Assembly (NCBI RefSeq): GCF_008831285.2
Contig: NC_045141.1
Coordinates: 26,897,315-26,961,314 of the forward strand
Source: Nymphaea colorata
Taxonomy: Eukaryota > Streptophyta > Magnoliopsida > Nymphaeales > Nymphaeaceae
Direction: 5' to 3'
DNA length: 64,000 nt
Positions 3,701 through 63,832 of this stretch are shown here, piece after piece (position 1 is the stretch's first letter; every line of letters begins with the position of its first letter). The notes below the pieces were generated by a model. That model did no database searches. It worked only from the letters and a program-made list of their open reading frames with translations, and was not told the DNA's origin. The translations under genes and the position numbers were made by a program.

Positions 3701-5902
3701 AACAATTGGGTCGTCGCTCCAATAATGGAAGCTATTTAATTTACGATTCCCATCCCACAGAGAGGGAACCTTTGCGGATTCTAACCGTTCAATCTTTCCT
3801 TGAGGAACGGATGAAACAACTGGAGCTGTTCAGATCCAATGAGTTCTACACTTGGTCGAAGCCTGACACTCAGTCGACAGCACAAATTTCCACTCGCTTG
3901 TTTTTAACGTGTTTCGCATAATTTCGTCTCCCTCTCATACATTTTGCAGGACCAAAATGGAAGTCCACTTTTGGTTTCGATGAGCTCAAGCAAGGACCCT
4001 AGACGGCCTTGAAAGCGTAGCAAACAAGGTAGAAAGTAAACGAAACACATAATGGGGACTTGATCTCCAAAACAATTTCCATCATTTGACACCACTAGGA
4101 GTTGTGAACTAGTTTCGCATACATCCCAGAGCAGCTGAACGAAAAATTTTAAAACTGAAGCATATGTGTCTTATCTCTTGAAACTTTGGTGCCGTTTTAG
4201 TTGTATTATTTCGGTGAATGATTTCACGTATAGCCGGCTAATCAAGAAACTGGATTACCAAAAAAGTTTCACACGCATCATCTACACAAGCAGAAGAGGT
4301 GTCAAGTTAGAGATGGAGGATAATCTCAACCTTCTCAATCTACTTCCTGAGCTCTCTTAAGACTTTGATCTCAAGAGATTTTATGACATGTACAGGCATA
4401 CAGCCCGCTAATCAAGAAATTGGAAGAACAACATAAGTTTACATGCAATTGCAGTCTATAGAAACAGGTTAAAAAGAAAGAAAAACAGGTGAAAAGAGAA
4501 GAATATGAACAATCCACTATCATCCTACTGTTTTAGCTTTCTCTGGGTTTATCTTGAAAAATTACTCTTACTGGATTACCTCTAATTGGAAATAAAGTGT
4601 AACATATATAAAAAATGTAAAAGACGATGACATAATGCATCAAAAATTTAATTATTCACCAAATCAACGATTTGGCCGGAAAGAAGGATCCAAAGCATAA
4701 AAAGGGTAGCTCACATCTTTCATTTTTGGACTAATCTTTTTACCTTTCTGTCGGAAAAAGCAAAAGAACAAAGAGTGGGAAGTTCATGTTAGGCTCTTCG
4801 TTTACGTTCAATCGCAGCCGTGAGTGTTAGAGAAGACGCGGTCAGGATTAAGCAAGAAAGTTCATGGATCATATAATTCGAGCGTAACTGCTGCCAGCGT
4901 TAGCTCGGAAAAGAAAAGAGAAGGAACAGTTAAATGTTGATACAGTGATCATGAGCTCCATGATTGACAATTGACATACCGATTGATTGCGAGCAGAGGC
5001 ACCAGCGGACGTATACATAAAAGCAAAAGCCACGTCCATTCATGTATTAATAAGGCAATGAAAGATGGCCGCAGAGAGGACATCCAACATCTGACATGCT
5101 GGAGCCTGAACCAGACACCTATCCCTATCTCCCCTGCTTTGCTTTACACACAGAGTCGTAAAAAGCAAAGCTGCAAAAGAGAGACAGAGCGCGAGAGTGA
5201 TGAAAAAAAAAAGGTCGCCTGTTCATGAAAGAATGAAAGATGCAAAGTCTCACAATTGTTTCCCAAAGAATCAAATCTCAAATAGAAAAAACACTGAGAC
5301 AAACGCTTACAGTTTGTACAGGTCATGAAACTTGGTTTCATCAGCATTTGCTAATTAATTATGGGGATAATTTTGGACCTTTGAATATGATGACGATGTT
5401 GGATGCTTGCAGATCTTGGCTAGAGAGACGAGGGACTAAGATTTCGCCTTTGAATGGCTAAAGATCTACCCTTCATGATTAGCAGACTTCAGCAGCCCAC
5501 TGTCTCTCGTGCTTAGGGTTGCAGCAGTCCACGTCTTTGATAGATATGTCAGTCGGTTCATAACTGTAGGAGAAAAAGAAAAACTCACCAAAGTGCTGCG
5601 AGAGCCAGCAGCTACCTACTCATTCCATCCTCCACTCACGGCTTCATAATTTAGACCATAGTTACCAGAAATTTTGCTTCCCTTCTCCAATTTGCTTTCT
5701 CGCTTTAAATTTGATTTCTCCCTGCTCTGCTTCTTCCGATCTCAAAAATAATACTTTTCAAACCGGTAATTATGGTTCAGAGAGGTCTTTCCATACCTTG
5801 ACGCAGATGATGAAGTTGCTCCAAGTGACACCACAGACCGCAGCGGTGATGATGATGTCGGTGTTAGTGTTATTGCTGATGTCCGATATGATGACGATTC
5901 CT
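724..5902. other. intergenic; no gene supported
   Basis: AT-rich sequence with only short, unconserved open frames on both strands. The one structure I see is a diverged direct repeat around 2596-2880, listed separately. Frames at 5240-5461 (+) and 4166-4360 (+) have no recognisable motif. Confidence 0.5.
2596..2880. repeat. two diverged direct copies, period about 130-165 bp
   Basis: CCAAGGCGCTCGTTTGAATG at 2728 recurs as CCAAGATGCTCGTTTCAATG at 2856. The flanking GCATGCTTTGATAAGAG (2598) recurs as GCATGCTTGGACAAGAG (2764). An open frame on the minus strand (2501-2857) spans the repeat but has no family resemblance I can name. Confidence 0.5.
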
Positions 5903-6220
5903 TTAACGATTCGAAATTGGGTTGGCACCACTAGGAACTTCATGGGCAGTTGCATTATACTGGCTAGGAGACAATGACGGTGAATGGTGACGATGGTTTA
6001 GTGCCATGGGCTGAGAACTTGAAGAGTTTTGCCTGGCTGTGGTAGACACGGAATCTGAAGGGCCTGGCCTTGTTGCAGAAGCCATGGGAGAGCATAGATG
6101 GTCCGAAGGATGAGCCAGGAGAAGCAGCAAGATGAGCCCAACTAGAGGAATTGCCATGCAGAGGTGCGCTTCTAGACAGTCGATCCAGCCCCCATATGAC
6201 AGAGTGGGATCGATATCCAT
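5903..6220 (-). CDS. CLE41/CLE44 (TDIF)-type CLE peptide precursor with Ala at peptide position 7
   Basis: A single open exon of 105 codons if ATG 6220 is used (MDIDPTLSYGG...), or 84 if ATG 6157 is used (MAIPLVGLILLLLLAHPSD). The family has a secretion signal with a Leu-rich core, here LVGLILLLLL, then a variable Ser/Pro/His-rich spacer, then a C-terminal 12-residue CLE motif. The motif is HEVPSGANPISN at 5944 to 5909, followed by one Arg and TAA (5905-5903). TDIF, the product of CLE41/CLE44, is HEV-Hyp-SG-Hyp-NPISN and acts through the receptor kinase PXY/TDR to hold vascular cambium cells undifferentiated. Eleven of twelve residues agree; Pro-7 is Ala (GCC, one base from CCC). The longer start is favoured because CLE41-type precursors carry a short hydrophilic lead before the signal core. 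The plus-strand frame at 5711-5977 is antisense shadow. Confidence 0.85.
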   Translation of the reverse strand: MDIDPTLSYGGWIDCLEAHLCMAIPLVGLILLLLLAHPSDHLCSPMASATRPGPSDSVSTTARQNSSSSQPMALNHRHHSPSLSPSQYNATAHEVPSGANPISNR

Positions 6221-8497
6221 GAACCGCAGGAGGCCCTCCAGGATTATGAGTGAAAGGCGAAGAAATCGACAAAGTGTTTGATGAAAAGATGAACAAGAGA
6301 GAGAGAACCAAATTATAACAGTCCGAGGGCAGAAAAAGCAGGGGAAAAAGAAGCAAACCCCACAACACTGCCCCTTCAATTCATATAAATTACCCGTATG
6401 AAAAATTTGAATAGAAAAGGACAACAGTACAACCTTTTCCATTTTTGTCTTTCTAAGATAACTCTCCTGATTAAGTTTGAACGCAGAGAGAGAATAGTGC
6501 AATCATTTTTTGTCTTTCTAAGATTAACCCTTACGTGGGCTTCGGGGCAAATAGGTTTGTGCTCTTGGTCAAGAAACTGCCAACTTTTTGACCTTCATGA
6601 TTGACCGTAATGCTCAACTTATGTGTTAGAGCAGCATGGTTATTTTTAAACTAGAGAAAACAAACGGAAAAGTTTAAACTTGGAAGCTCCATGCCGAACT
6701 TTTCTCTTTGTTTTTTCTTGTTCTCTTACTTTACATGATTACCTACAGGTCTATTCTGGCCAAAAAACAATAACAACGAGACAAGGAGTCGCGGCTAAGC
6801 CGCTCATTACAAGGTAAATTGCTATCATTCAGCTCCAACACTTACTTTTGCGCAAGTCTCAACTTTGTCAGAAAGACAAACACTGGAGACAACTGACTCC
6901 ATTAATTAGAGATAACACACAGCACACCCACAGACAAGAACACATAAATGCTTTCAGAAATATCACCAAAAAAATATGGTTTTTCTGATTCCTAGACAGT
7001 CGATTTCTAACAGTTCTTATTAATAAGATGTTCACGCCATGAAGAATCGATTTGGGCATCTAAGTTTTCTTTTTCCTTGGTCATTTTCCTCCAAACCTCT
7101 TTTCCAAGATTTCCAATGGAATCGTATCTAATGACCAATGTCGTCAAGAAAATTAAGAGCTAGTTGTTTTTTCAGTTACTCTTCTGATGAAGGAAAATAG
7201 GTTAAAGTTTAGGCAGACTCGTACCAAATTGTAGCAACAAAACAAGTTGGAAATATTAACTTCTTCACCTCCTTCAATTTGACTCTTCTTTTAATGGAGA
7301 CGCCGGCGAGGGGCGAAGAGGGCATTTACTTTTCACTGAAAAATATAGCAACCATGAGGCGCTTTGGATACACAGGTAATTTCCCCCAAGTAAAAGAATC
7401 TTTTACGATTAAAGACAGCCAGCGGCAGAAGGGTTGGCATTTCTTTCTTGGGAGTTTGCCAAGAGAGATCTTTGTTGACTTGGAAGAAAACCGAGTGGAG
7501 AAAGATGAGGGGAAGGGGGCGTTGGAGGGGAAGGTTGCTGTCCCCGCTGCTTTATTGAGGCCTCGGAAAGCAAAGCAGTGAAGCATCGTATACCTTGGCC
7601 GTGACCCTGCCTTGTGAAAGGCCAGGGCCTTGTCGCCACCATCTGCTACACAGGGTCCCCACAACAAGGCCTAGTATTTTTATTTTTTTTTTTTGCATGC
7701 CTTTCCATCCTTCTCGTAAATCTTTTTCACCACTTCCGTTTCTAAAACCAGTGTTATAAATGTCGGCCTGGATCTGCCAATCATAAAACTGGATTCAAAC
7801 CATTGACCGATACAATCGCGCCATGTTCTCGTTCGGGGATCCCACGCTAATCGCCAGTATTGGATCACATTGGTGTTTCAAGATCTTCATTGTATTCAAG
7901 TAGGTCTTGGTGACCTCGCACTTGATTTATTCTAGTTTTAAGATTTTCAGGATTTGAGATTAGATCAAACCAAATCGTTTCTTCATTCCCCCTTTAAATC
8001 TTTTGGATGTAGACCTTAAGCCTCAAGTAAGGTCCTTAATTTAATAAACTACAGCAAAAGCATGCTATTTTATCAAATTTATGAATCTAAAATTCATATG
8101 AATTGGGTTCAAGGAGAGGGTTTTTGCATTAATAATTTATTTGTTGGTAGAGTCTGCATGCTTCACAATAACGAAAAAATGTATCAAAAAATCAAGACAT
8201 GAAGATGGCGGTTACAGCGATTCCATTCCAACGATCAAGTGACGATCGTTATCCGTCTTGAATCGATTAAATCTACCAATAGCAATCCCGATGGGCCGAG
8301 ATTTTATGTGATTGGGAGTCGGTTCCACGCAACTTAAGTTATTTATTATGAGTTGGCTGCAGCACGGCCAGCTGCCACCCATACCAACTGCGACAGCATT
8401 AATGCTTCCGGTGATACAAGTCAAAGAAAATTTATTATAGAATACGATCTTTCAGTCTGATTTTTGGTGGTAGGTTTTGAAACATTCAATTCCCTCG

Positions 8498-8519
8498 CTC
8501 TCTCTCTCTCTCTCTCTCT
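8498..8519. repeat. (CT)n microsatellite
   Basis: An uninterrupted run of CT dinucleotides. Confidence 0.95.
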
Positions 8520-8711
8520 TTTCTCAAGGAGCCAAGAATGATCCAAAACTTATTGCGGAGGCCACCATGTTCAGAGCTTGCATATGGTTCATAAAATTTG
8601 TGTGCTTCTAATTCAAAACGTAAATCATTCAAGATTTTATAAAAAAAATAATTGGAAAGACAATTGGAAAACAGGTTACATAAGTGCTTCCTTTTTATTG
8701 GATCCAAGCGC

Positions 8712-8740
8712 GTGTGTGTGTGTGTATATATATATATATA
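8712..8740. repeat. (GT)n(AT)n compound microsatellite
   Basis: A GT run passes directly into an AT run. Confidence 0.95.
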
Positions 8741-9545
8741 AAAGTAAAAACAAGAGTGTGGAAAGTTACGCTGCTTGATCTGCCATCCTTTACTCTTGGA
8801 AGTGTTACTACTATTAGTTAATTTACTTTCCTTTTGGCTCCGGTGTAGAACGCTTATGAGGAACAAAGGAAATATCTGACAGTTTTGTGGTCACTAGATC
8901 GTGATCTTTTCCCGCTTTATTATGGCAGATCATTCCCTTTCATCATTGGAAAACACGAATTCGCTTTTACAACCAATCTCAATCTCACTAGAGGCAAATT
9001 GGCTAGTGGGCCTGAGGTTCCGCTATAAGCGCGTTCTTCTTTACTTTGGGCTATTCCATTAGAAATGACATAGGTCTTCTTTTCTCTTTCCCTTTCCACA
9101 GTCACTTTGCCTGCTTTTCTGCTTTTCTTTCTTCCCTGATTCAGAAGGTGGGGCCATAACTCGCACAGTCTGAGACTCTAATATATTGGCAACTCTTGAG
9201 AGAAGAGCGATCTAAACCATCATCTAATCTCTTGTCTCGTTCGTGCCTGATCGTTTTATTTATGAGACTTTGTATTGCAAACTCTAGGGATCAAATCCTC
9301 AGTACCTCAAGTGAGAATTCCTCGAACGCTTATGCCCATACCTTAAGTTTGCTTCCATTCAAATTTTTGCGTACTTGTTGATTATCTAAAGAAACTGAAA
9401 GTGCACAAATGGATTCATCATGCATAGCCAATTTCCTTTGAAACAACCTTTAAAATTATGCCCTTTTCTTTTAACAAAAATATGCAGTTTTATGAACATT
9501 ACAACCTTATTCTGAGTAAAACAAATGGCAATGATTTGAATATGA

Positions 9546-13702: not shown

Positions 13703-14504
13703 AAACCATCAAATTTGACAACATGACCATCTTTCCCTTCAGTAGATTTGATTTAATAGGAAAAGGTGAGGAGAGAGATATAATATCAACTCAGGATTTT
13801 AGGGTTGTAAGAAATCGATATCAAATTTCCATTATACACACGCTAGATCCTTTATATATTATATACTCGAATATGAGCATATTTGCAGTCAATCGGACTC
13901 TGACATCAATCTCAAACCTGTTCCTCCTACTTAACAAGGAATTAATTGCGGTAATAGCGGAGACTTTTTATTAAGCGGAAAAATTACACGATGTCCTCCA
14001 ATAACGTCACGGACGTCTTTATCATCAGTCCTTTTTGTATAGCGTCACCAAACGTCACTGGTTTCGTGGTAGGCCTACCATCGACTCGATTATACTAGAC
14101 AGTGCTCACAAGCTACACCATCCATTGGCCCGGAGTCTCCTCCGTCAATCTCCCGGATTTTGTACGGTTCAGATGAAGCCTAACCCCGCCTAGCTTGCCC
14201 GGGAAAGAGATGCATGCATGCGACGGCAGCAGATCCCCTCTCCTGAAACGCCTGCGCATGATTTATCAACTTTAATTCCCATGCAAATTATTGATGACGA
14301 TAAGATTGGGATCACTCCCACTTTCGTATAGTTTCCATATTGCAGTCCATTCGTTACGAGAGTGAAAGGCAAATCATGAAAAATTTTCAAATTCTTTCTT
14401 TTGCCGCGCTGCACCGCCCGACGGCCGCGATAATTCTCCTTCAAGGACCAGATAGAGGTCTGCATTTCTGCTCTCTCTCTCTCTCTGTCGAAGGAGAAGT
14501 CGAG

Positions 14505-16023
14505 ATGGGATCCGGTGATGGTTGCGGCGGAGGATCTGCGACGACAGCTGCATCAAAGAGGTGCGCAGCATGCAAGGCCATGAGGCGGAGGTGCAGGGAG
14601 GACTGCGCCTTCTCCGCATACTTCCCAGCCTCCCACCCTCGCAGATTCCACTGCGTCCACCGGATCTTCGGTGCTGCCAACGTGAGCAGGATGCTCAAGG
14701 TTTTCTCTCTCCCTCTCTTTTATTCCTTCGGGTTCAATGTTTGCACAATCTGTCACAATGTCCGGCGACGGGGAGTTTAAAATTCAAAATTATGCAAACT
14801 AAACAGTCCGAACTCACATCGTATCAGTATTATGAGCGCACATATTATTATCTCAATTTCTGTTGGCATTGTGAAGGACCGATTTCATGAATGTAGGATA
14901 CAAGATAGGGGCATGCTAGCATCTTACACGCCATTTCCTCGTCCTAGACTCGAGAAATTGCTTTGATGTTTTCTGAATCAGAACCTCAATCTGATGGTGG
15001 TTGGTCGCATTTGGTATAGGATGTATATTGTTCCGTAGTCAAATTTTCATTTTAGTTCCCAAACTGATAAGAAACTATCTTACTAGTACAATAAGGAATA
15101 CCCGTAACTCTAATTCGATTAATTCACATCAATAGTCCACATTAGACGAATCCTTCATTTGCTCACTCCTAATCATAAATCCGCTGACACAATGGAGAGA
15201 GAGAGAGGGAGAGGGAAGGCTCATTAATTGTAGACCTTCAATTTAGCGATTTAGTGCGTAAACCTTCCCAGAAAAATATAAGATTGCTTAATACGTTAGT
15301 TTGCGTTTTCTTTCTAAAAAGGTTTTAAAAAATGCATACGTAAATAGTGATTAAACCAATGATAACGCCCACTGTTCTCTCTACGCAGTATCGGCCATAT
15401 ACATATTCGTGGTAGGTAATCAATTTTGACCACTTCGTCATAAAATCATAGCAAAGGGAAACTTCAAGGAACAGATAGGCCTTTAAATGAAGCAATCAGA
15501 AACGCCATATAGAAAGAAATTACCATTTCAGTCGTCCCCATTATTGATATACGATTATCGAAGCGCTTTTAGTTGGTCGAACCATTTAATGAAAAATTCT
15601 TTTGACAAACTTGGATACTGATCGATACTGGATCCAAATTCGTTGAGGAATTTGTAGCCACATTTGCCTGTTTTCCTGCCAAAGAAAACCTGATTTTGCA
15701 TTGTTCTGCAGCATCTGCCGATGGAGCAGCGAGGTGAGGCAGTAGATTCTCTAGTCTATGAAGCCAATGCACGTATACTTGACCCAGTCTATGGGTGCGT
15801 CCGAGTCATCGCGGAGCTCCAACACCAGCTTCTTGCTGCTCAGGAGCAGCTTGCCATTGTCAGAGCCGAAATTGCATGGTGCAGAAGCCGTGAACTCTTT
15901 CAGATTGAAAAACATAGCCACCAGGGTGATGCAGCCACGGAAGACAAAGCAAGGCCTACGGAAATGGAGAATTTGCAGTTTGATTTTCCATTCACAGAGT
16001 TAGATTTAGCCCTCGACATGTAA
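14505..16023 (+). CDS. LOB-domain (LBD) transcription factor, class I, LBD23/LBD24-like
   Basis: Two exons: 14505-14699 (65 codons) and 15712-16023, joined in phase 0 (AAG|GTTTTC ... TTCTGCAG|CATCTG) to give 168 residues. The zinc-finger-like CX2CX6CX3C block uses Cys-20, -23, -30 and -34. The GAS block follows (FPASHPRRFHCVHRIFGAAN), then DPVYGCV (89-95) and the Leu-zipper-like VIAELQHQLLAAQEQL. LOB-domain proteins are plant-specific nuclear DNA-binding factors that set organ boundaries and lateral organ development. The intron after the GAS-block Met-Leu-Lys is at the usual family position. The start was chosen because it is the nearest ATG before the Cys block; an upstream in-frame ATG at 14340 would add 55 residues, including a CT-repeat-encoded SLSLS run, and is probably 5' UTR. 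The C-terminus ends in TELDLALDM, an LxLxL (EAR-like) motif. Best resemblance from memory is to LBD23/LBD24; the subgroup is less sure than the family. Confidence 0.92.
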
Positions 16024-46609: not shown

Positions 46610-46663
46610 GAAAAAGCACACTCAACACCATACCCCTCGCTCGCTGTAACCATTGCTCTTTCT

Positions 46664-46691
46664 TTCTCTCTCTCTCTCTCTCTCTCTCTCG
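46664..46691. repeat. (CT)n tract in the PHO1 copy 1 leader
   Basis: A CT run ending 19 bases before the ATG, in the presumed 5' UTR; such pyrimidine tracts are common in plant leaders. Confidence 0.9.
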
Positions 46692-46709
46692 CTCCAACTG
46701 CGGATAGAG

Positions 46710-49700
46710 ATGGTGAAGTTCTCGAAGGAGCTGGAGGCACAACTGATCCCCGAGTGGAAAGACGCGTTTGTAAACTACTGGGCACTCAAGAAGAACGTGA
46801 AGAAGATCAAACTGCTCCGGGAATCGGCGGTTGTCAACGCCGCACGCGGGGATGGGGGAGGAGTCTTCTCCCTCTTGAATCCCTTACGTCGCGTCGGGCT
46901 GCAGATCGCCGATAAATTGTTTCGGAAAGGCGAGATGGATGGAGACATCATTCAGGTATCTCTCTCTCTCTCTCTCTCTCTCTAGAGATAGATAATGGAC
47001 GAAGGCGGTTATGTTTGAGAATGGCTTTGTTGCCTCTCCTTTTGGGGCTCTGGAAATTGCTACGTGGAGTGGTGTGAGCATTCGCTCCATCGCTTGCTAG
47101 AGATGTGGACGCTTTTTCCTTTTCGGTTTCTGTTTTTCCGTTGAATTGGCGGTGGAGGGGTGACGGAAGGGAATACGGTCGCCGGAGCTTTCCGTTGCGG
47201 TGGTGCCTCAATCCTCCAGTGCATGTTCCCTCTTTTTGGTTTCTCATTTTCCTTCACCTCTTCCATTGCTCTCTCTCTTTTCTCTGTCACGTAACGTTAG
47301 GCTACGAAATGCTCTCTCCCTTTCTACCATATGAACAGATTGCATACCATATTGGACAAATACTGAAAAATGAGATTTTGTTCTAAAAAGGAAATGAGTC
47401 TTCAGAGTCTCAGACGTACTCGTCGTACAAAAGACGTGCGCCAATCCCTGTCTCTCTTTCTCTCTCTGTGTGCAAAGATGGCAGACGAGAAGAAAAAGGG
47501 ACGGGCAGACATTGAACCTAAAAGGAGATTGATTCTTCGGTGGTATCGTTGTCGTGTGCCAAGCTCAATGATTCCGTCAGGCTTCTTATTACACCTTTAT
47601 CGACCGCCTCTTCGTGACGCCAATAGATATCCTTCAAGGTCCATCGACCTTAGAGCTGAATATTCTAAGTCCCAGATTTTATTGGTTCACAGGTAAGAGG
47701 AGGGGATGAGGAGAATTGGTACGAGACGGATCTGGAGACCTTGTTCACGGAGGACGACGAAGTGAAGGAATTCTTCGTACGCTTGGACGAGCAACTGAAC
47801 AAGGTCAACCAATTCTACAGAACCAAGGAGGCTGAGTTCCTGGAGAGAGGGGAGATCCTCAACAAGCAGCTCCACATCCTCCTCGATCTCAAGCGCGTTC
47901 TCCATGAACGCCACCGGAAGATGTACTCATCCAAGAGCGGCTGCGGGACGTCGCCGCCGGGTTCCATGTCGCCGTCCCTTCGAGGCTCCGAATTTACCGG
48001 TAACCCGCTGACTTCTTGCTCCTGTCGTTGTAGTTGCAGGTGCTGTCTTTCTTTAGGCTCCATTTCTCTCTGTTTCAAAGTTGATGTATCAAACACGCTG
48101 TACTTGCATGAAAAAGACAGCTGGTGGCGATTGCACATAAGACTCTATCTTGAAAGTTGAAACATCATTAACTGACTTAGTACTTTTTTTTTCCCTGGTA
48201 ATTGATTAAAAAAGGTCCGAGTTAAAACGGTAAACAACTCAAGAGAAGAAATAAAAAGAAATGCATGTTTATATTTTATTTTTTCTAATTTTCTTTTCAA
48301 TAAGCATGATTAGATTATTTGCTCTCCACTCTTGAGTGCAGAACTTGTCAACAATAACTTTAATTTCTTTCTGAGGAAACCGGTATATTCAATTTGCGAC
48401 CGTATTAAACGAGTTTTAGTAAAAAGTGGGATAGCGTAGGGCCGCCTTTGGGCTATATGTTAGACGAGTATATGTTGGAGACGGTATATTCTGTCAATTC
48501 TGAACGGGATATCTGATCATGCATCTGCCCGAACTATACATGTGTATGTAATTGGAAATGCCAGAACTTTAGATGGTAACGTCACGATTCTTGAAAACTC
48601 GTGAACTGATTGACAAGTTTTAGTAGTTGAACCCATTTCTCGATCCGGTTCTTCGAGTAGTCCATTTAGCAGTTTCGAATCACTCAATCTCTTTACCATA
48701 GTTGCCATTCACTTTTTCAAAAAGCAATTTTACACAAAATAATTTAAGATATTAATTATATAATTTAAGCTACTTATATAATTCAAAACGTGTCAACTAA
48801 AAATAACAATATAATGATTATGTATGTAACGACTCGACCCACTTTCAGGCGCTCAGCCTCATGACCTAATAGATTCTAATGAGTTCTCTAGCAGTCAACG
48901 TTAAAAAGATTAAGAATCAAGACAACCAACTATTTAACAACCTTTTTTATAAACCTTTGAAGATCCATCGTAATTTTCAATACAACACTAAAATTTTGAG
49001 GTGTTACAATATAAATCGATTTATTAACCATATAGTAAAGTTGATTAATTTGCATAAGTTAACTAAATAGAAAAAAAAATTGGACATATAAAATTGCTTT
49101 TTTAATTTAACATATAAATTGTTATTGGCCTTTTCAAAAATAACAGATGTGATTGTTGAACCTTTTTTGAATGATTTATTACTTCACACATTTATATATT
49201 TTTACTCGCTCTAAATATCCATATAAATAAACAAGTCCTCCTTTGATGTGGTATTTAAAACTAGTAAAGCTCTTCTTAGGTTTTGGATGTTCAGCTACTC
49301 TTTTTTTTTTTTTTAAACTGTTTAATTATGCTGAACTTCTTTTGGCAAAACTTTAGAAATAAAATTTTTAAGGTAGTGCTTGGACGTTTGGCTTCCAAAA
49401 CCAGGTGACGTGGACTGAATGAATTGCTCCTGTCGGGGTGTTACTTGGGTTGTGTCAATCGAGTTCACAAATCAATTTTCAAAAAACCATTTTTTCAAAC
49501 ATTTTTTTTTTTGGGTGTCATCGAACATGTCTAAAGCAAATCACTGCCAAGATTCTGAGTAAGACCACCATGTAAGATGTTTGGATTTTTTTTTTTACTT
49601 TCAATTTTGTATTGCAATTTGTACTTTGCATTATTAGTTGTAATTGTTTATCTTCTAATTACTCCAAAAAATACCTTTGGATTTTTAGTTTGTTTAAGAG

Positions 49701-52700
49701 AATAAGGATATGAATAAATAATTCATGGTTAGGGGTAAAACTTTAGGGAATCGGTAGAATCACGAAAAACGATCAATCACGAAACCTTTGACATGGAGAA
49801 AAAAATGCAAACCATGTTTACTTGTTCGTTTTATTAAGCTTTAAAAGATGTTTATTGTGTGCTCACAGGTTTAATTGAAGATCACAATCAATCGCTACTA
49901 ACTTTCGGTAAAAGTACTCAAAATCGGAAGCCAAATTTTGTATTAAATATAACAGAAACTTCATCAAGCAAAAGACGTACCCTTGGCCAACTAAACCTTT
50001 TAAATTATTTTTGTATCTTTTTTTTTTTTTTTTAACAAGCAACCCGATCGAACTCCACATAATGGCACTGAGACTTTTATTGAATAGAAACTTTTTTTAA
50101 CATTCTTAGACCGTATACACGAGAAGAGAAATTCCGACGTTGGTGCTCACCTCTGAGGTCCTGCCCCAACCTCAAAACATAGGCTTGACACATTTTTTTA
50201 TAACGTTCCCCCGCATCTAAATGGTTTGGATTCGGGTCAGATCCAATTGTTCCTTAAGTAGACTAATTGGATATGTTTAATTGGATCAGGATTCAGATTC
50301 AGACTTCGGTATGAATATTTTTATTTGACTTCGAATCTAATTAGCATTAGATCCGGCATTTGTATGAAACTGGGTTGAATTTTTACTGAATTCCCAATCA
50401 ACTTTCGGATTCAAGTTCATATTCCATGATGAAACAGTACATAAGATCTGAATCCGATTGATAATTAGATCCAAATTTCGTTGAAAGTCAAATTAAATGG
50501 GTTTGAGATGAGATCAACAGCGAAATTAAAATATGTCGATTCCTTTGCATACCTTTCACCACGGAATTCATGAGAGACGGAGGCGCACGAAAACGAAACG
50601 AAGGGGTCTCCCACCTTCCCCTTCGTTTTGCGTGAGCCCGCTCTTCCCTCTTTCCCTCTCAGTGGAGCGGGCACTTTCTTTCTCTCCATTAATGACCAAA
50701 ACGACAAAAATGAGAAGGAAGGTAGGTAAAAGGAGAAGAAAGGGAAAGAAGTTCGCCATCTCAATGAGGAATGGAATTGACAGTTCTGCTTTTGATCTGC
50801 AGAGAGCGCGACGGAGGCAGACGACACGGGCGGGGAGTCGCCGATGGTGGCGGTGGAGAGGGTGATGGGCCCGGTGGGAAGGGGGAAGGTCAAGCCCGGC
50901 AGCAAGGGAGGGAAGGCCAACAAGGCGGTGGGGCCCGGGGGCATGCGGATCGACATACCGGCGACCACGCCCACCAGGGCCCTCTCCGCCCTCACCCAGT
51001 CGCTGTGGGAGGACGTGGTCACCACGCCCAAGAAGGACGGCTCCGGCGAGGCACTCAACCGGAAAAAGGTCCAGTGCGCAGAGAAGATGATCCGCGGCGC
51101 CTACGTCGAGCTCTACAGGGGCCTCGGCCTCCTCAAGACCTACAGGTGGGCCTGTGTTGTGTTAATTAAAGACTTGTTCTGTTCAATGTTTCAAGAATTA
51201 GTGTTCGCTTTCCTGTTGTTTCTTTTAAGAAAAGCCAGCATTAATCTGTGTATGGTCGCCTTTGTGAAAATATGTAGAAATACTGAGATGAAAATCCTTT
51301 AAAACTCAGTAGGAAAGTCACTGTAAGGTTCTGTCGTCCAGTGGGCTTAGTAGCTCCTGGGACTGATCATGGGCCGATGGTCAGCAAGAGTACTGAATCT
51401 GGACTCTTGTTGGTTGCCCGGCTTCAGTGGTGACATTACGTCTGATAAAATCTCCCATCTCCTAGTTAGGACATTAGAGATTACGTTGGTTCTTCGCTTT
51501 CCCTTTATTATTTTATGTTAGTGTCGTTAATTTGTTTTGGAGGTTAGATTGTGACGTTTTTTTTTTTGTTTTTATTTAAAATTGGCAGCTCTCTAAATCT
51601 TGTGGCGTTCACGAAGATACTCAAGAAATTTGATAAGGTGCTCTCTCTCTCTCTCCCGCTCCCTCCTTTTGTTCTGGTATCGCTTCTAGAACGATCAGCA
51701 ATATATATATATAAAGCCTGCCTTTCTGTCCTCTCCGATGAGTAAGGGCAATAAACGTAGCAGAGACAAAGTTGCACTGAACGCAAAGAGATAAATAGAA
51801 AAAAAATTGCATCTATATTGTTTGAGACAATTTAAACAATGAACGTAGCTCTTCCATACTTGGCTTCAACTGCACCAAGAAAAAACGAAAGAAAACAAAA
51901 GGAGAGGCCAGATTGCGTGTGCAGCATAGGGAACTTTCTTTTCAAACTTTAGCATCTATTTTAAGACATTCTGTCTGCTCATAATACAGTATTAAATTCA
52001 AAAGTTTTACTGTTAATTTCTTGGTTCCTAGTTGGCTTTGCCATCCATCTTTATTATAATCTTTTATTTTTCTCTGAGTGACGAATGATCTCAGAGTCCA
52101 TCATTAAAGATATGCAAACTAGATAGTTTCATAATTTCGTTAAATATCTTGGTCATCTAACTAGCGTGTCTCTGTTCTAAACACCCAGGTTTCGAGTCGG
52201 CAAGCTTCTGCAACGTATTTGAAAGCAGTGAAAAGATCGCATTTTTTGAGTTCAGACAAGGTATTCTCTCCCTTACTTTTTTTTCTTGGAAGTTACTGAT
52301 ATAATGCAATAGCATGTCAATTTCACGAGATCCAGACAATATCGTCGAGCTGACTTTCCTCACATGAATCATACACCTGAGTCATGGACATTTCTCTATA
52401 ACATAGTGGGGTTCTGCACATAGTGCTGTAGGTGTAAGCACATACCCATTATAAAGGCAAAGAAAGATGGAAGGGGAACGTACCCGTGCATGGCTAGTGC
52501 TGGTATCTTTTAAACAAGCTAAAAGGAAAGCCAGTGTATCTTAGTGGGTGCACAAAGGTCAGTTATCTTGGTGGGTACACGCAAGTAACTTAGTAGTGTC
52601 CCTTAAAGATATTGGGAATCCTGGTCAGCATGTATATAATTCTAAGGCAAGGGAGCTGCCGCACTGTCGCAGTTTCCTCTCTTTGGCAACCGACATTTAT

Positions 52701-55700
52701 CTAAAATGTGGCACTGTCAGTACTATTTCAATGAAATATTAACAAATTATTTTTTTTATTTAAAAGTAAAAAAGCGTGATCCATTATAAAATGAAAGTAT
52801 CTGATTGATGAGTTATGCTGCTGGTGTAACAGCATAACCACACACACATGCACGTGCATTGCATGTCACCGGCCTTTACTAGTTGGAGGTGCCGTTCTAA
52901 AAATGAAGAACTGATCCCTTGGCACCATGTGTGTGGTTTAAGCTATGTTACTAAGAACTGGGATCGAGTTTTTGTGCATGCGACAAATATGTAAAGTAAA
53001 AAAGGCAGTGACATTTTAGAGAGAGAGAGAGAGAGAGAGAGAAAAGTTTTGTTGGATGGTGATAGTAGTTAAAAATGATGTGAAATGCTGTTGTTGGGCA
53101 GATTGTTAAGTTGGCGGACGAGGTGGAATCCATATTCACCAGGCACTTTGCTAGCAATGATCGGAAAAGAGCAATGAAGTTCTTGAGGCCCCAAAGCCAA
53201 AAGGACTCCCACATGATCACCTTTTTAGTAGGTATGCAAGTTTGATCCACTCCACGCGCGTGACCCGATTGCACGGACGCATCATTTCTTCCTGGCCACC
53301 TGTATCTATGAAATTGCCTTCAACACTACCTACTAAGTGCCAGCACGTTTGACAACCATTGCACAAAAAGTTTGTGATATTGCGCCCGTGCATACCACAT
53401 GGCGGTGAACCAACACATAGTTTACTTCATTGGCTTTTCTGTGACAGCCGACCGCTGGTGAAAGAAAGAACAAACATATATTTTTTTAAAGTTTTGTATA
53501 TTTAGTTTTTAAATATTTTTACAATTCTCATTTTATCCTGTTCTTTCAAAAGTCATATTTTTTCACTTTAACGAGAGCATTTTGATCATAACACTCTTGA
53601 GCATACTACAAGTACCATTGGTATTTGGGCATATTCACATAATTTTGTAGTATTATATGAACAAATTCATAAAACGGTTTGTTATGATTGACAGACACAC
53701 TGGTAAACCAGACTCTTAAGAATCAAGAATGACCTTGGCGTTTGAATTTTTCTATACTGAGGTTGAGAAAAAAGAAATATACTGAATTACTAAAATGTTT
53801 TTTTTCTTATTTTTTTTTTCAAAAATTTATGTGAACCAAATCGATGGTCAAGATCATCTAGCAATTAATTGTTCAACACCTACTGACACAGACACACACT
53901 GGCGGATACAAGTTAGGTTTAATTGAATAGGTGCATTCCATTTCCGATTTTTAGATATAAATAGAAAATGGGGATAACTTTGAAACCTAAACTATAAAGA
54001 GAAATTATATGAGTGTTTTTTAATGTAAGACTAACTATAGGATACACCATTTATGTTGGAAAACTTCTGGCGATGGGAATGAGGCCCTAAAATGGATAAA
54101 ACTATTTGGCTTTTAAGTTTTGACACATGATTGTTTTTCTCGGTTGACTAAAAACCTTTTACGCCCTCTTTGGTTGAAGGGAAAGGGAGGGATTGAACAA
54201 TAAATCTTTTGTTTGGTTGATTAATTAAAAAGGAGAAAAAAAGAAAGAAAATTAAAAAGTTTGTTTAGTTGAGAAGGGAGAAAAAAAGAAAGAGATGAAA
54301 AAAAAAGGAAAGTGTAATGTAAATCTAAGCCCTCCAAAATTAGACTTATTGAAAAAGAAATGAAACCTGTCTCTTTCTACCATTTATACCCCTCTTAATT
54401 TTTTAAACATTTTAAATGATATGAATATTATTTTAAAGTATTATAAATTATATTCTTTTCTTTCATTTCTATCTAATATAAATTATATCCTTTCTTTTCA
54501 TTTCTATCTAAACACGGTACTTCTTTTTCATTTTCATTTCAATCATTTTCCGTTATTTTTCCTCCATTTCCTTTTGTGCTTCAGTCCCTAAAATTATTGC
54601 AGCTTTTTCTGCATAAATTTGGGTGCTTGGAAACATCTTTAGCGTGATCGACTGGCCTTCCTTTCTCGCTCTCACCCTCATTTTTTGGTTGAAAGCACTT
54701 GGAAGCATCACAGGCCGCTTTAGCCTTTAGATCAGAGCAGAAAAGAGACTACGAATATCCACGAATCATCAACGGTTTCCGTCGTTCATTTATTCAGCCT
54801 TTATTTTAGTTTTTGAACATTACTTTTTCATTGTGCAGGTCTGTTCACGGGCTGCTTCTTGACCCTCTTCACCGTCTATGCTTTCCTGGCCCACCTCTCC
54901 GGCATGTACTCCTCCTCCACCCAATCTGATTACATGGAAACCGTCTACCCCGTCTTCAGGTAGCGCACCCACCTGCCCTACCCATGCATATATATATATA
55001 TATATAGTCAATTTTGAAACTTTTTCTACCTGGTTTTGAAGGGACACAAATTGAAAACTTTCATCGTTACTTAAATATCCATGAGACATGAATTAATTAA
55101 GTTGCCATCATGAAATTAAGCTTTCCCAGTACTGCCTGAAATCGAATCAGAGTAGCTTCAATGGAATGATTTATGTGGCAGCATGTTCGCGCTGATCAGC
55201 CTGCATGTATTCCTGTATGGATGCAACGTCTGCGCATGGAGAAGCACCAGGATCAACTACACCTTCATCTTCGAGTTCTCCCCCACCACCGCCCTCAAGT
55301 ACAGGGACGTCTTCCTCATCTGCACCTCCATCATGACGCTGGTCATCGGCGGAATGGTGGCTCACCTCATCCTCCGCACAAATGGCTTCTCCCCACAGTA
55401 TGTCGATGCCATCCCTGGTGTCCTCCTCCTGGTAAGTCCATCGGCGGAATGCTTCGCTCTTTAACATATTAAGAAATTTTAGGAATGTGAAGCTTTGCAT
55501 TTGAGATTTTGATGAAAAATGTTTCCAAACACTCTGTTTTGTGCGCCCATTGCATTGGCGGTCCTTCAGTTTCACCTAATAGTGGAAGACATAATCTATA
55601 CACAATCTTCTTGTTTGTTTTAATTGGCGGTGTTTACTGCTTAACTGGACATGAATTCATAGCCTAGCTTCTTTCTCATTTCTCAACTTATGGATGGCAT

Positions 55701-57461
55701 TTGGTGCTCAGATCTTCACCGGCTTGCTTATCTGCCCTCTCAACATCTTTTACCGCTCCACCCGCTACTACTTCCTCCGTGTCATGCGCAACATCATATG
55801 CTCACCATTCTACAAGGCAAGTTCTCTCTCTTTCACTCTATAATCCATATATATAGCTCGAGTTATAAATTCAATCCATTCTTGATTACTAGACTTGAAA
55901 ACCGATGTGGTGGTCAGACACTAATTCAGTATGAATTGCTTGCAGGTGGTAATGGTGGATTTCTTTATGGCGGATCAGCTAACTAGTCAGGTATTACTTG
56001 CTCTACCTTTTTCAAGTCTTAGCGACAGTTGTCAACAGTTTAACGTCGATAGCCAAGAATTTGTGACTGCTGAAAAAACTCATGTTCCTCGTATATTCTT
56101 TAATTGGAAAAGAATTGTACAATTGAGTCAAAGAAAATTTAAAGCTTTAAAATTAAAATTTATATGTTGAGACTTACATGATCTTTTAAAAAGCTAAAGG
56201 ACAACGTCTCTTGTATGTTGCAGGTGCCACTGCTAAGGCACATGGAGTTCACAGCCTGCTATTTCCTTGTGGGCGGCTTCAAAACTCATCATTCACAGAC
56301 ATGCACCAACAGCAAGCTCTACAAGGAGCTGGCTTATGTCATTTCTTTCATGCCTTACTACTGGCGTGCCATGCAGGTGCGATATGGAAATCCCCTACAG
56401 AAAAAAAAAAAAAACATACAAAAATGCATAGACTTTTCTCTGTAGTACATATTTTTCTGAAATTTATGGATGCTGGTCAGTGTGCAAGAAGATGGTTCGA
56501 CGAAGGAGACCTGACCCACATAGCAAACCTGGGCAAGTATGTCTCAGCCATGCTAGCGGCTGGAGCCAGACTGACATTTGCAATGCAGCCTACCCCTTTG
56601 TGGTTGGCCCTTGTTGTCATCACCTCCACAGTGGCAACCATCTACCAGCTCTACTGGGACTTTGTGAAGGACTGGGGGCTACTCAACCCAAGGTCCAAGA
56701 ATCCATGGCTGAGGGATGATCTCATTCTCAAGCGCAAGAGTGCTTACTATGCTGCAATTGTAAGTAGCATCTTCTGCCATTATTTCTTCAGATCTCATGT
56801 GCGTCACCGACACAGGTGTCTTAGACATCTGGAAAAGCAATTAATCGTCCTGCCTGGCTTTCCCAAAAATCCCAGTTTGATTTCTAGGTTGTGCTCTTGT
56901 TTGCATCAATTTGATATCTATGATGAACTTTCTCTTATTTGTCTCTGTCACCGTGCCGATTAAGCACGACCCAAGTTCACGAACCCTAAAATTCATCCAA
57001 GTTCATTAACTTGAATGTTCCACAGTTCCACTACTAGAGCAAAATATAACCAAGTTCACAAAGAACAAAATTTTTGGTTTAGCCCACTTTGCTGGTTTTG
57101 GTTAGAAAGAAGGAAAATGATAAAAATGCGTGTCGGCATGTATGTCAGGGTATAAACTTCGTGCTTAGGCTTGCTTGGGTGGAAGCAGTCATGCACATTA
57201 ACGCCGGCAAGGTTGACCACAGAGTGGTGGATTTTTTATTAGCTTCACTTGAGGTGATCCGCCGCGGACACTGGAATTACTATAGGTAAAATTTTCATGC
57301 ATATTTGTGCTGTGTTTCGCGATCTATTTTCTTGAGGTTAAGTGATTAGCACTGACCATTTTCTCAGCAGGTTAGAGAATGAGCACTTGAATAATGTGGG
57401 CAAGTTCAGGGCAGTGAAGACAGTGCCGCTGCCATTCCGCGAGATGGAAGAAGATGATTAA
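46710..57461 (+). CDS. PHO1-family phosphate exporter (SPX and EXS domains), copy 1, complete
   Basis: Fourteen exons: 46710-46955, 47693-47999, 50803-51145, 51589-51637, 52189-52260, 53102-53231, 54839-54959, 55182-55431, 55712-55816, 55946-55990, 56224-56376, 56481-56759, 57149-57285 and 57371-57461. All phases agree; total 775 residues, normal for PHO1. PHO1 exports inorganic phosphate from root stelar cells for xylem loading; SPX senses inositol pyrophosphates and EXS carries transport. SPX spans residues 1 to about 340: [20 protein letters not shown], the Lys-rich [12 protein letters not shown] helix (139-150) and [20 protein letters not shown]. Helices start at about 383 ([20 protein letters not shown]). 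EXS, exons 10-14, includes [40 protein letters not shown] and [20 protein letters not shown]. Intron 9 begins with GC (AAG|GCAAGT) rather than GT. Long introns 2 and 6 hold AT-rich and MITE sequence. The exact PHO1;H subgroup is not resolved. Confidence 0.96.
46959..46983. repeat. (CT)n tract at the start of PHO1 copy 1 intron 1
   Basis: The CT run begins directly after the donor (CAG|GTATCTCTC). The same layout is present in PHO1 copy 2. Confidence 0.95.
48383..48390. promoter_or_regulatory. P1BS-like motif GTATATTC in PHO1 intron 2
   Basis: Matches GNATATNC, the site bound by PHR1-type phosphate-starvation regulators. It lies inside the 2.8 kb intron 2; a second match is 101 bases downstream. 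Chance matches are expected in AT-rich DNA of this length. Confidence 0.3.
48484..48491. promoter_or_regulatory. second P1BS-like motif GTATATTC in PHO1 intron 2
   Basis: Same eight bases and the same preceding CG (CGGTATATTC in both) as the first motif. Function is speculative. Confidence 0.3.
53019..53042. repeat. (GA)n microsatellite in PHO1 intron 5
   Basis: A GA run about 60 bases before the exon 6 acceptor. Confidence 0.95.
54165..54620 (+). mobile_element. MITE-like insertion in PHO1 intron 6
   Basis: It starts GCCCTCTTTGGTTGAAGGGA with AGGGATTGAACAAT, continues with a purine-rich body, and contains TGTAAATCTAAGCCCTCCAA-AATTAGA. These blocks match the reverse strand of 39850-40067 in the same order. 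There is no coding capacity. The right end is uncertain. Confidence 0.55.
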
Positions 57462-58797
57462 GACTGCTGCAAGAAGATTATTAGACCTGCTGATGCTTGA
57501 TTGATGATTATGGGCTTGTGATTCAATTAGTGGGGCAGGACAAAGCCGAGCCAAAAGATCCCAACTCAATCATGCGGTCGATTCATGTTCATTGGATCCA
57601 TCGTTCTTGTAGGGCCTTGCTGAACAATGGTCCCTTCTGAAAGGGACCATGGGCTTGTATTCATGACGCTAAGGATCAAATAGGTTGGTTTTGTAGATAA
57701 TGGCATTTGGAATTTGAGCATGATTGGTTCCCGGGATTTCCCAAAAGATTGAACTATCATCCATGCCTTCTAATGGTTGGAAGCAGAGCAGTCCAAATTC
57801 CACACTAGTAGTACTCAGCAAATGGGGGGAAAAAAGAAAAGAAAAAAACAATGAGTGCTTATCTGAAAGGGGAAAACCCCTTGTCGAAATGGCTTGAGCT
57901 GCAAATCAATTGAAAAGGCTAGTTTACTCTGTTTGCAGAAACAGAGAACCACAAATTTTGGTTTGACCCATCCAAAAGCTAAATCATTTTCCTGGGCATT
58001 GAAGAGTAAACAGCTCTCTTTGCTACTGTCATTGAAAGAGGACGTCAGAGAGGAAAAAAACAAAATGCCAAAGGTGGGGTAACTGGTTGCTTTGTTTTAA
58101 TTTTGATCTCGAAAGGTAGGTGGAGTACCGCTTTGCCAGCATCAGAATAGGCATGTAAATAAAATTAAGTACGTTTCCATGTAAGTTCCTCAGAATTGCT
58201 CTTTTGATGGTTGTTTACGTTTCCCAGAATTGCTCCTCTTGATGGTTGTTTAACTCAGCTAGAAAAACTAAAACCGTTTTACGATCAAAATAGTGAAGTT
58301 TGATAGAAGAGATGAGGGCGAATGAAACGAGGCCTAAGAGTTGGGGGCAAGCATTAACCTTAGAGTAAAGCACTTCTCTGCCAGAAAGCACGATCAACAA
58401 GCAGCTTACATCGTTCAAGTGAATACTAATATTATATCCACAATGACAATCAACCAATGATCTTCAACATTATTTATGAACCTCGCCAAAAGGAAATGTG
58501 AGCTGGTTTCTTTTGACGTGTATGGATTAGGGCGGAACCAACTAGAGTATGTCGCGCATTAATTTAAACGAAAACATATCAGTGTTCAGGTGTCTACTAA
58601 AAAACTTTGAAAAAAAAAAAAAAGGAAAGAAAGAAATATATTTAGTGGCCATTTGGATGACACCCTCATTTAACAAAAAGACTTGGTTTCATGCAAACCA
58701 AGTTTTTTAATGAGTTTTAACAATCTTGTTTAATTTTATTACGTATCCTAGCTAACACTGCTCTTTTCCTCCCGTCAAACGTGTTGATGCTTGTCAG
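57462..58797. other. 3' flank of PHO1 copy 1; no gene
   Basis: Contains the presumed 3' UTR and AT-rich sequence. A block at about 58640-58730 (GGCCATTTGGATGACACC, AACCAAGTTTT) resembles similar blocks at 18735, 38226 and 62797 and may be a MITE family. Short frames here have no motif. Confidence 0.4.
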
Positions 58798-59059
58798 TGT
58801 GCAAGAAGATGGTTCGATGAAGGCGATTTGAACCACTTAGCAAATTTGGGCAACTATATGTCAGCCATGATAGCGGCTGAATCACATATACAAGGCATCC
58901 CACTCCGTTGTGGTTGCCATCACCTCAACAATGGCAACCAGTTGCCAGCTCTATTGGGATTTTGTCAAGGACTGGGGCCTTCTCAACCCAAGATAAAAAA
59001 ATCCATGGCTGAGGGATGAACTCACTCTAAAGAAGAAGACTTTTTACTATGTAGCACTT
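58798..59059 (+). pseudogene. orphan copy of PHO1 exon 12 (EXS segment), frameshifted
   Basis: Matches exon 12 of PHO1 copy 1 (56481-56759) from the acceptor (TCAG|TGTGCAAGAAGATGG) to the donor (CTT|GTGAGT). It encodes [20 protein letters not shown] and, in another frame, [13 protein letters not shown]-like sequence. It is 262 bases against 279; the net loss of 17, mainly where exon 12 reads AGCCAGACTGACATTTGC, breaks the frame, and an in-frame stop (AGATAA) follows LLNP. No neighbouring PHO1 exon is found within 500 bases on either side. It is the remnant of a third PHO1 copy or a local exon duplication. Confidence 0.9.
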
Positions 59060-59273
59060 GTGAGTAACCTCATGCATATATGCATCTTCCATTATATTCA
59101 CAGGTTCTCACATGTTGTTTGTGGGCCTCACGTCCTGAGCCATGTCATGTGATCCGCCTGTGGAAGAACTGTTTGATTGATTACAAGGGGAAAAAGAATT
59201 AAAAGCCCATTTTCTACCTAAAACAAGCATTTGAAAGGAGTACTTACAGGCAGCTATATTTCATATCGAGTGT

Positions 59274-59775
59274 TTAATTATGCTTTATTAAACAACCAAT
59301 CTGTTTGTCATTCGAATGCAACAGATTCTGAAACAGAAAGTAGTAGGTGAACCACTTCCGCTGCAGGCCATCCCTTCCTGATCTGAAAATTGTCAAGCAG
59401 CATATCAGCAGTCGTTCGGTTTTGATCTTCAGAGAGACGTTTATTTCGCCACGCTGCAAAGCCTTCAAGTTTCCATTGTTGGCCTTTAGGACGATCACCC
59501 CCTCCCCGGTATAAGTGAGCCCAACAGCCTCAATGCAATTCAATAAAACATCATCTTCTGGAACACCATCACTGGGATCCTGCCGAACAGCTTCCGCATA
59601 AACAAAACCGCCCGCTTGATTCCTCACCAGGACAGCTACTCCCTATTTCCCCTTCCTCGACCAGGGTGCTATATGAATGTTGAAAGGAACTTCCTGGCCG
59701 TCGCTCCATTGGCCCCATAAGGTTCTGGTTTGAAGCCAGTTGCTGACTTTTGACAGGTTGTTCGAGCACCAACTG
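59274..59775 (-). pseudogene. degenerate retroelement-like fragment, possibly RNase H-like
   Basis: In one minus-strand frame, interrupted by one stop, the reading is TLWGQWSDGQEVPFNIHIAP, then GVAVLVRNQAGGFVYAEAVR and LNCIEAVGLTYTGEGVIVLK. The order resembles RNase H domains of plant LINE elements, where a G(V/I)xxVxRxxxG strand is followed by an acidic helix. The usual first catalytic Asp is not visible. The assignment is tentative. Confidence 0.35.
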
Positions 59776-61613
59776 CAGTTAAGCGGATGCTATTTCAATC
59801 TATTCCAGAATAAGTCCACAGCTTTAGGCATCTCCTTTTTAGACCCATGTTTTGCATCATAAAGGCCTTACCTTTTGAAACATGCTGGATGCATGGCTAA
59901 AATTGCTGATGCAGCCACAGCAATCTGCTGTTCTTAACACTGCAGAAAAGCACATTTAATATTCCCAAAATGAAAGGTAAATCAGGTGTATCAGATTTTA
60001 TACCTTTGGCAAAAATTTTAGCTACAGCGAAGGAATCACTTCATGGAAGTTGGCTTTCAATCAGAACCCCAATACTGTCCTCCATTGTGAACCTACTTTT
60101 TACAATGAGAACAAAAATATCTAGTTCTGTTTCTCCATTTTCCATCTCCACTCTTATCAAATCCATGAAATGCCACTTGCTCAGTGTTAGTTTTATCTTT
60201 ATTGGAATATTTCCTTTTGTGGGATTCATCACTTTTTTTTTTTTTTTGCTCGATTCATTTCTCAAAATAATTGAACAAACCACGCTCAAAGACAGCAGTT
60301 CAAAGGCCTGAAGAATTTGGCTTCAAATGGTTCCATATTCCAAGCTAAGACCCGCAAGTAATTGGGATATTAATTATTCTGATGTTCGTGCATCTTTTCA
60401 CTGGATCAAGCTGGGCAACATTATAAACACAGAAATCAAGTTTATACGCCGTAGATCTCCCATTTATTTCGTGAAAGTCTGGTTCACGGCCTTTTTGCGA
60501 ACACTTGTATTCTGAGAAAGCCGGAACATCGAGCAATATACATTTTATCACTATACAACTCCTTGGGACTTTGGCCAATCTCCAAATTTGTTCTGCCATT
60601 TCCTTGCAACTCACTTTCTTAAAAGATCTCATTTACCAACATATGGTTTGGTGGATTTGACTGCTGTGTAGCACATCAATTCTCTCAAATGGCCGTTCCA
60701 GCACTTGATCCTTCCGCCGTGAGTGCGTTTGAGGAAGCAGGCACACACAAGACAGTATAGTGCAAACGTGGCAAAGTATTGAATTCGGTATGAAGGGGGT
60801 GTTTTTATTTTTTGTCAAAGGTAATTTTTTCTTTCACAAAGCCGGGATTTTTTCTCTCCGTATTAAGTCTTCTTTAAGGCTACCGACCTGCCTGTCATAT
60901 CTTGATCCATTAACCTATATATTCAGGAGGAAAACAACACAGTGGTTGAGTTTGAGTTGGGCCTATCATAATGCATGACTACATAGCTGAGGATTCACCA
61001 CAATACTAGCTTGGCTCATTATTGCCCAAACAATGGCCTATTTCTTCACATTCACCGTGTTGGTATGACTTGAATTTTTCAAACATATTTGGTTTACGCG
61101 GCGTTAAAGGTTTCCGAAGTCTTCAATTAGCCTTAGTTCAATTTTAATGTAGCCAAAACTTTTATTTGGAACCATAAACTAGATGATGAGTGCTAAGCAC
61201 TCGATATACTATCACCTCTAGCTGTTGATTATATCTCATTAAGCAAGGTGGTGAGCCATTTTCATATTCGACGACAAGCTTTCACTTTTTCATCCTCACG
61301 TGACCCTACGCAGTTGTGAGCACATTATATGCATCTATCTAAAGAATTGCTTTTAACCCACGCACATCTTTATGCGCATCTAAAGAATTGCACTTAACCC
61401 AAGCGAATCCCCACGTGCATCAAAGAGGAACTCACTGAAGTGTCAATAATTGTACGTTTCAAGGAAATGTGAACTAATGACCATGATGTATCTTGCATTA
61501 TTTTTTTTTAACTCATCGAATTGATCCCAATTAATTTCCCAGCAATGCTGAGCAGTGGATGGACCAAGCATAGTAAGTCCCCAACACGTTTTTCTCAACA
61601 TTCGTATCTTTTT
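59776..61613. other. accessory sequence, decayed frames
   Basis: Minus-strand frames at 60041-60289 and 60345-60632 have protein-like composition (EQIWRLAKVPRSCIVIKCIL; IPIKIKLTLSKWHFMDLIRV) and may belong to the same decayed element as 59274-59775. No family is recognised. The rest is non-coding. Confidence 0.35.
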
Positions 61614-62700
61614 CACCATGTAGGAAGATTTTAAACAGGTGCAACGAAAAAATAGTGCCCGCCGGACTTGACGATAGGTGGCCAGATACAAGCGGCCAAA
61701 AGAAATAAAAGGGCATCCGAACCAATCGGCACGGGCAGAGATAACATTATAGAAACTACAACGTCAGCAATGCTGCCTTCTTTGAACACAACTTTCGAGA
61801 CGCACCCACAGAAAAGCACAAGCTGCGCCACTGCTTGGCTGAACTGGCCTCTAGAAAAGCGGGGGTTGGCCAAAAAGTACAGGCTTGTCCGGCAATGGAA
61901 AAACAACAACCAAGGCAAATTAATTAAACCAGTATCCCGAATCCGATCTGTTTACGGCCATATTAGTTATATGGCGTTTTAGTTCTTTATCTTCTTCTTG
62001 TTCTAAGCACGTTGAGCCGAGGTTACTTACACTCGGTTTTTTATTCTATTCAATCGTTGTCTAATCACAAAAAAAAAAAGAAGAGGCGACGTGATAGACA
62101 TTGGTTTCTTCCACTTATATAAGAGCCCTTTATAAGCAAGACGCTGATTGCGTTTTGGTGCAAATGCCAAAGCTGAAAATCTCCTTCACCATGTACAAGA
62201 ATTTTGAACAGGAGAAACAGAAGTATTGTACCCACGGGTCTTGACGATAGGTAGCCGGATAGAAGCGGCCAATGAAGCAACGCGCATGGTCAGAGATAAC
62301 ATTATAAACTCCAACATGAGAAACGCGAATGGCCATAGATAACATTACAAACTCCAACGCGAGCAATGCTGCCTTCTTTGAACGCAACTTTCAAGACGCA
62401 GCCGGAAAAACAAGAGGCGCTTCTTGTCGCTTCTAGAAAAGCGCAAAGTACGGCCTCATATACGTGTAGCCAAGGCAGATTAATTAAACCATTATTCCGA
62501 TTCCGATCAGTTAACAGCCATGTTAGCTATATGGCGCTTTATAGCTACACTTGGTTGTTTATTCTTTTCAACCGTTGTCTAATGACAAAAAAATGAGGCG
62601 ACGTACTGGACATTGGTTTCTTCCACTTACATATGAGCCCTTTATAAGCAAGATGCTGATTGTGTATTGGTGCATGCGCCAAATCTGAAACTCGTTAAGT
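61614..62700. repeat. tandem duplication of about 0.5 kb upstream of PHO1 copy 2
   Basis: Unit 1 (about 61614-62186) and unit 2 (about 62187-62700) share, in order: CACCATGTA, TTGACGATAGGT, CAATGCTGCCTTCTTTGAAC, TTAATTAAACCA, GACATTGGTTTCTTCCACTT and GAGCCCTTTATAAGCAAGA. Unit 1 is longer. Unit 2 has an internal direct repeat of AGATAACATTA(T/C)AAACTCCAAC. Both carry a TATAA element (CCCTTTATAAGCAAG). They could be LTR-like or TRIM elements in tandem, or a local duplication of flank sequence. Confidence 0.75.
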
Positions 62701-62796
62701 GCACAACCATGTGTATGTACAGCAACGTATAATGACTAAAATGATTTCCGTAAAATTTAAAAAATGAAAAGAAAATTATGTAAGTATTAAGAAGTG

Positions 62797-63472: not shown

Positions 63473-63479
63473 ATAAAAA
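63473..63479 (+). promoter_or_regulatory. TATA box of PHO1 copy 2
   Basis: TATAAAA in TTCTCTATAAAAAG, 113 bases before the ATG at 63586. Confidence 0.65.
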
Positions 63480-63831: not shown

Positions 63832-63832
63832 G

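Follow-up and report, generated by a model that had tools for sequence, protein, structure and literature searches.

A TDIF-like CLE gene with alanine at position 7 and its proline-bearing twin in Nymphaea colorata

Background

Can a TDIF-type peptide lose the proline at position 7 and still act as a ligand? The question is raised by a small gene on the minus strand of a 64-kb stretch of the Nymphaea colorata genome (C4:26897315-26961314 of the genome assembly, hereafter the window), whose peptide has Ala where TDIF, the peptide of CLE41/CLE44 (HEVPSGPNPISN), has Pro. The original prediction placed the gene in the TDIF class and offered three readings of the variant: a weaker or antagonistic ligand of PXY/TDR, a diverging paralogue, or a sequence error. 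The analysis reported here leads us to consider it likely that the gene encodes a functional TDIF-like ligand and belongs to a duplicate pair, a derived and tolerated Ala-7 having removed the modification site at Pro-7.

Results and discussion

The precursor and its start

Translation of the minus strand confirmed that the small frame at 5903-6220 is uninterrupted (105 aa, ending in HEVPSGANPISNR*); read from stop to stop, the same frame has 199 aa and extends upstream of 6220. The frame closes with the dodecapeptide HEVPSGANPISN (5909..5944, minus), in which 11 of the 12 residues are those of TDIF, then one Arg and the stop. The predicted dodecapeptide is therefore present, but it is not the exact C-terminus of the protein. 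With the base composition of the window, the expected number of chance matches of at least 11/12 to TDIF is 5e-9 for 64 kb and 3e-5 for 408 Mb. The precursor had no Pfam match at E<=0.001.

The frame had been predicted to start at 6220, and it is indeed open from there, but translation probably begins at the ATG at 6157, since a twin gene on C12 has its in-frame start at the corresponding ATG, its own upstream ATG being out of frame. The likely coding sequence (5903..6157, minus) has 84 aa (MAIPLVGLILLLLL...HEVPSGANPISNR*), and its start ATG is common to the twin. It begins with a signal-peptide-like segment (MAIPLVGLILLLLLA, 6113..6157, minus) with a Kyte-Doolittle peak of ~3.0 over 11 residues; judged on this scale, the hydrophobic stretch is strong, but the n-region is short and without positive charge. 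The signal-like N-terminus and the ATG at 6157 (MAIPLVGL...) are matched in the twin.

Upstream of this start lies the in-frame extension beginning MDIDPTLSYGGWID (6158..6220, minus). In both copies the upstream ATG opens MDIDP(T/S)L..GGWID, and over its first 14 codons the copies show 6 synonymous and 4 nonsynonymous differences. In the window copy this frame continues into that of the precursor, whereas in the twin it forms a 52-aa uORF that is out of frame and overlaps the precursor start (1634-1792, minus, of the extracted C12 sequence L002); this comparison consists of two sequences, either of which may show the older state. A putative TATA-like element (TTATAATT, 6311..6318, minus) is present in both copies in the alignment. 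Farther out, at ~1.2 kb upstream of each CLE gene, is a conserved non-coding element (7421..7505, minus) with 86.5% identity over 89 aligned columns to the twin (L002 2735-2823). Rfam gave 0 matches at gathering thresholds across window positions 4500-9500, which cover this element.

The twin on C12 and the duplication

It had been suggested that the same genome be searched for other CLE41/44 copies that keep Pro-7, and one such copy was found. At E<=0.001 the 105-aa precursor (six candidates scored) matched itself and C12:15299338-15299601 (60% identity, E=3.8e-17); the count of two refers to close copies in this single search, as distinct from more distant CLE42-/CLE46-like genes. The twin encodes MAISLVGLVLVLLLAHPSDHL...HEVPSGPNPISNR and thus exact TDIF, Pro-7 included. 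The Arg that trails the dodecapeptide is found in both copies.

The surroundings of the two genes were compared by blastn (E<=1e-8), with 104 kb at the window copy (the 64-kb window and 40 kb to its left) set against 150 kb of C12. All 28 rows had the same orientation. Twelve were ordered along 46.7-57.5 kb of the window, two corresponded to the CLE gene region and the upstream element, and 11 fell, many-to-many, in a left-hand multi-copy gene cluster. The other three lay off a single line, namely 54169-54269, whose match lies at a distance of ~29 kb, and the pair 58795-59066 and 63585-63702, which are a second, tandem-copy-like match to one C12 gene. Between 7.5 and 46.7 kb of the window no row was obtained against the 150 kb of C12 at this threshold. 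Since an exon of a LOB-domain (LBD) gene (14304-14780, plus; Pfam PF03195) lies in that interval, this gene has no blastn match in the compared stretch of C12. In Pfam, four right-hand stretches have matches to SPX or EXS, which points to a PHO1-like gene. Its SPX-EXS exons were seen at 46650-57286 (plus), and further pieces at 58756-63990 (plus) renew partial matches to the same C12 SPX-EXS gene, suggesting a tandem copy.

Synonymous divergence was measured for both genes, with Ks = 1.13 for the CLE precursor pair (75 codons) and Ks = 1.04 for eight SPX-EXS open-frame stretches pooled (660 codons; single stretches 0.59-2.51, some of them possibly with intron sequence). A whole-genome duplication in N. 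colorata was reported to have a Ks peak near 0.9 (PMC7015852). The assembly behaves as expected of this species in its GH3-family matches (matched stretches, not genes), of which 39 of 85 lie on C3 and 23 of 85 on C8; in N. colorata, chr3 and chr8 were reported to be the richest in GH3 genes (12 and 7; PMC13149400). With a largely collinear block and Ks of ~1.1, the two CLE copies fit old segmental or whole-genome duplicates, and the reading of the window gene as a diverging paralogue is borne out.

A conserved peptide with a derived alanine

The peptide (HEVPSGANPISN, then Arg and stop) starts with His, as does the C-terminal dodecapeptide of an H-type CLE. It carries all six of the residues reported to be essential for TDIF (H1, V3, G6, N8, P9, N12; PMC8496505, citing Ito 2006), and through the twin it is homologous to a gene encoding exact TDIF. 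A strict definition of TDIF asks for Pro or Hyp at position 7, where this peptide has Ala (GCC), and the gene is therefore to be called TDIF-like and not TDIF-encoding. Its assignment to the TDIF class holds with that qualification: judged by its sequence it is a real TDIF-like CLE gene of the H-type (CLE41-44-like), a kind that is already known.

The Ala-7 codon (5924..5926, minus) corresponds to CCG in the twin and was correctly described as one base from proline, GCC against CCC. A single base could also be a sequence or assembly error that hides a true CCC; if the sequence comes from the published N. colorata assembly, which was reported to be Illumina-polished (PMC7015852), substitution errors should be rare, and we regard such an error as extremely unlikely.

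Between the copies, the last 13 codons, comprising the dodecapeptide and Arg, show 10 synonymous changes, with synonymous sites saturated, and one nonsynonymous change, Pro/Ala at position 7 (Fisher's test, p=1.7e-8, with site counts rounded). Conservation is poor in the precursor outside these codons (Ka 0.29, Ks 0.80, 62 codons). With 10 synonymous changes against one amino-acid change, the peptide has been under selection after the duplication; this constraint is measured between the copies, and on the window branch it may have acted before or after Pro-7 was lost. The free divergence of the variable region of the precursor, and the departure of one copy from an otherwise conserved residue, could also be expected of a decaying duplicate in which the Ala codon marks an early relaxation of constraint. 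Yet the frame is still open, the 12 other terminal codons still encode the same residues in spite of the synonymous changes, and upstream stretches, proximal as well as distal, are conserved between the copies. We consider decay quite unlikely.

As to the direction of the change, TDIF with Pro-7, the same as in Arabidopsis, was reported in gymnosperms and ferns (PMC4659896). Monocots reportedly lack exact TDIF but have HEVPSGPNPDSN, in which Pro-7 is kept (PMC7552357). Because Pro-7 is found in the twin as well as in gymnosperm and fern TDIF, Ala-7 is, on this comparison of sequences, the derived state.

Position 7 and ligand activity

Several studies have addressed what position 7 contributes to TDIF. 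In one, Hyp4, S5 and Hyp7 were reported to have no significant side-chain contact with TDR, and replacing them by Ala caused only minor changes in binding by ITC; binding was weakened by substitutions at H1, V3, G6, N8, I10 and N12 (PMC5383425). The 7th residue was also described as contributing nothing to the activity of TDIF (PMC8496505, citing Ito 2006). In work on CLE26 the P7A substitution raised activity, and its authors held position 7 not to be critical in TDIF, CLV3 and CLE26 (PMC4526925). Elsewhere, positions 1, 3, 4, 6, 8, 9 and 12 were given as function-reducing and 2, 5, 10 and 11 as having low impact, with position 7 unlisted in the passage concerned (PMC7552357).

It was proposed in the original prediction that the Ala-7 peptide might be a weaker or competing ligand at TDR/PXY; as such it would tune down signalling from the Pro-7 twin. 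One structure of TDR lends this some weight, as the peptide was described there as kinked at Gly6-Hyp7, with Hyp7 in van der Waals contact with F279, L301 and W325, although hydroxylation was found to be dispensable (PMC4979064). So does the tomato peptide SlCLE13p, with Ala-7 and Glu-10, which gave the weakest root inhibition among three tomato peptides and for which the authors offered Ala-7 as a possible reason (PMC4195864). Against these stand the minor binding effect of Ala at Hyp7, the reported dispensability of the position and the gain of activity in CLE26, and the reportedly antagonist-like switchgrass peptide PvTDIFL_4p carries His-12 while retaining Pro-7 (PMC8496505). We therefore do not favour this proposal, which we judge unlikely, and near-normal activity is better supported than antagonism or weakening.

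The preferred reading, a functional ligand with a tolerated Ala-7, would run as follows. One of two duplicate H-type CLE genes would be expressed as a precursor of ~84 aa, which would be secreted and processed to HEVPSGANPISN. This peptide would bind TDR/PXY through the unchanged anchors H1, V3, G6, N8, P9, I10 and N12 about as well as TDIF does, and would activate it. Ala-7 would mean that one proline modification site has been lost, while ligand activity would not be abolished.

Both TDIF and the peptide of the twin have 11 of 12 residues, the essential ones all included, in common with the window peptide, and their precursors resemble the window precursor in being small, in having a hydrophobic N-terminus and in carrying the peptide at the C-terminal end. 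The window peptide differs from TDIF in Ala instead of Pro-7, and the trailing Arg is a further difference in both copies here. Ala-7 in an otherwise TDIF-like peptide was also reported for tomato SlCLE13 (HEVPSGANPESN; PMC4195864, PMC9670457), which differs in having Glu-10 as well and in which Ala-7 presumably arose by an independent change. Tomato CLE8 (HDVPSGANPVQN; PMC9670457) carries Ala-7 too, as does the TDIF-like peptide of switchgrass PvTDIFL4 (HQVPSGANPDSN; PMC8496505), which differs in Gln-2 and Asp-10. In a text search of the literature for the plain-letter spelling, the exact HEVPSGANPISN was not found. The strings HEVPSGA and PSGANP do occur, none of them as this exact dodecapeptide in the text retrieved. 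A CLE survey of 1,000 species does not name Nymphaea in the main text consulted (PMC12661658), and another paper, which covers CLE and TDIF, names Nymphaea colorata for a different peptide family (PMC11756074).

A natural single-residue variant of TDIF with an intact twin in one genome, from a plant lineage that is not known to have a vascular cambium, makes a clean pair for the role of Pro-7 and its modification. From the present evidence the substitution appears to be ordinary and tolerated, and there are precedents for its type in tomato and switchgrass.

A TDR/PXY-like receptor in the same genome

A stretch of the Arabidopsis TDR ectodomain was searched against the genome and gave 29 matches at E<=1e-40, with 112 candidates scored of 1676; the best eight of the 29 (L040-L047) were aligned. 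The best TDR-like open reading frame, L040 (C12:14657484-14658572), is 55% identical to Arabidopsis TDR and agrees with that protein at 17 of the 21 positions checked, including F279, F281, S305, W353, R421 and R423. Five residues of the H1 pocket (F161, S162, G186, S187, Y188) are present in it, a full set that none of the seven other aligned kinases has. The four differences are R138 to His, L301 to Val, W325 to Phe and K397 to Arg. Two of the three reported Hyp7-contact residues are thus changed (V301 and F325, with F279 kept), and for this reason the binding data from Arabidopsis TDR may not carry over to the local receptor.

These changes could also suggest a specialised ligand, in which position 7 would no longer be hydroxylated or glycosylated, the peptide and TDR (301, 325) would have shifted together in a lineage not known to have a vascular cambium, and the copies would be split by start control through the uORF. 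Position 325 is Leu in all seven other aligned LRR kinases of the genome, and W325 was reported to be replaceable by a hydrophobic residue in homologues (PMC5383425). Coevolution of TDR 325 with Ala-7 is therefore put forward only as part of this reading, and specialisation of this kind appears improbable to us.

A second TDR-like gene, L048 (C12:14670883-14671557), was noticed ~12 kb from L040 and inverted relative to it. In the assembly it is read in two frames, with the frame change near L048:5545, and inspection by eye gives Phe at 301 and Leu at 325.
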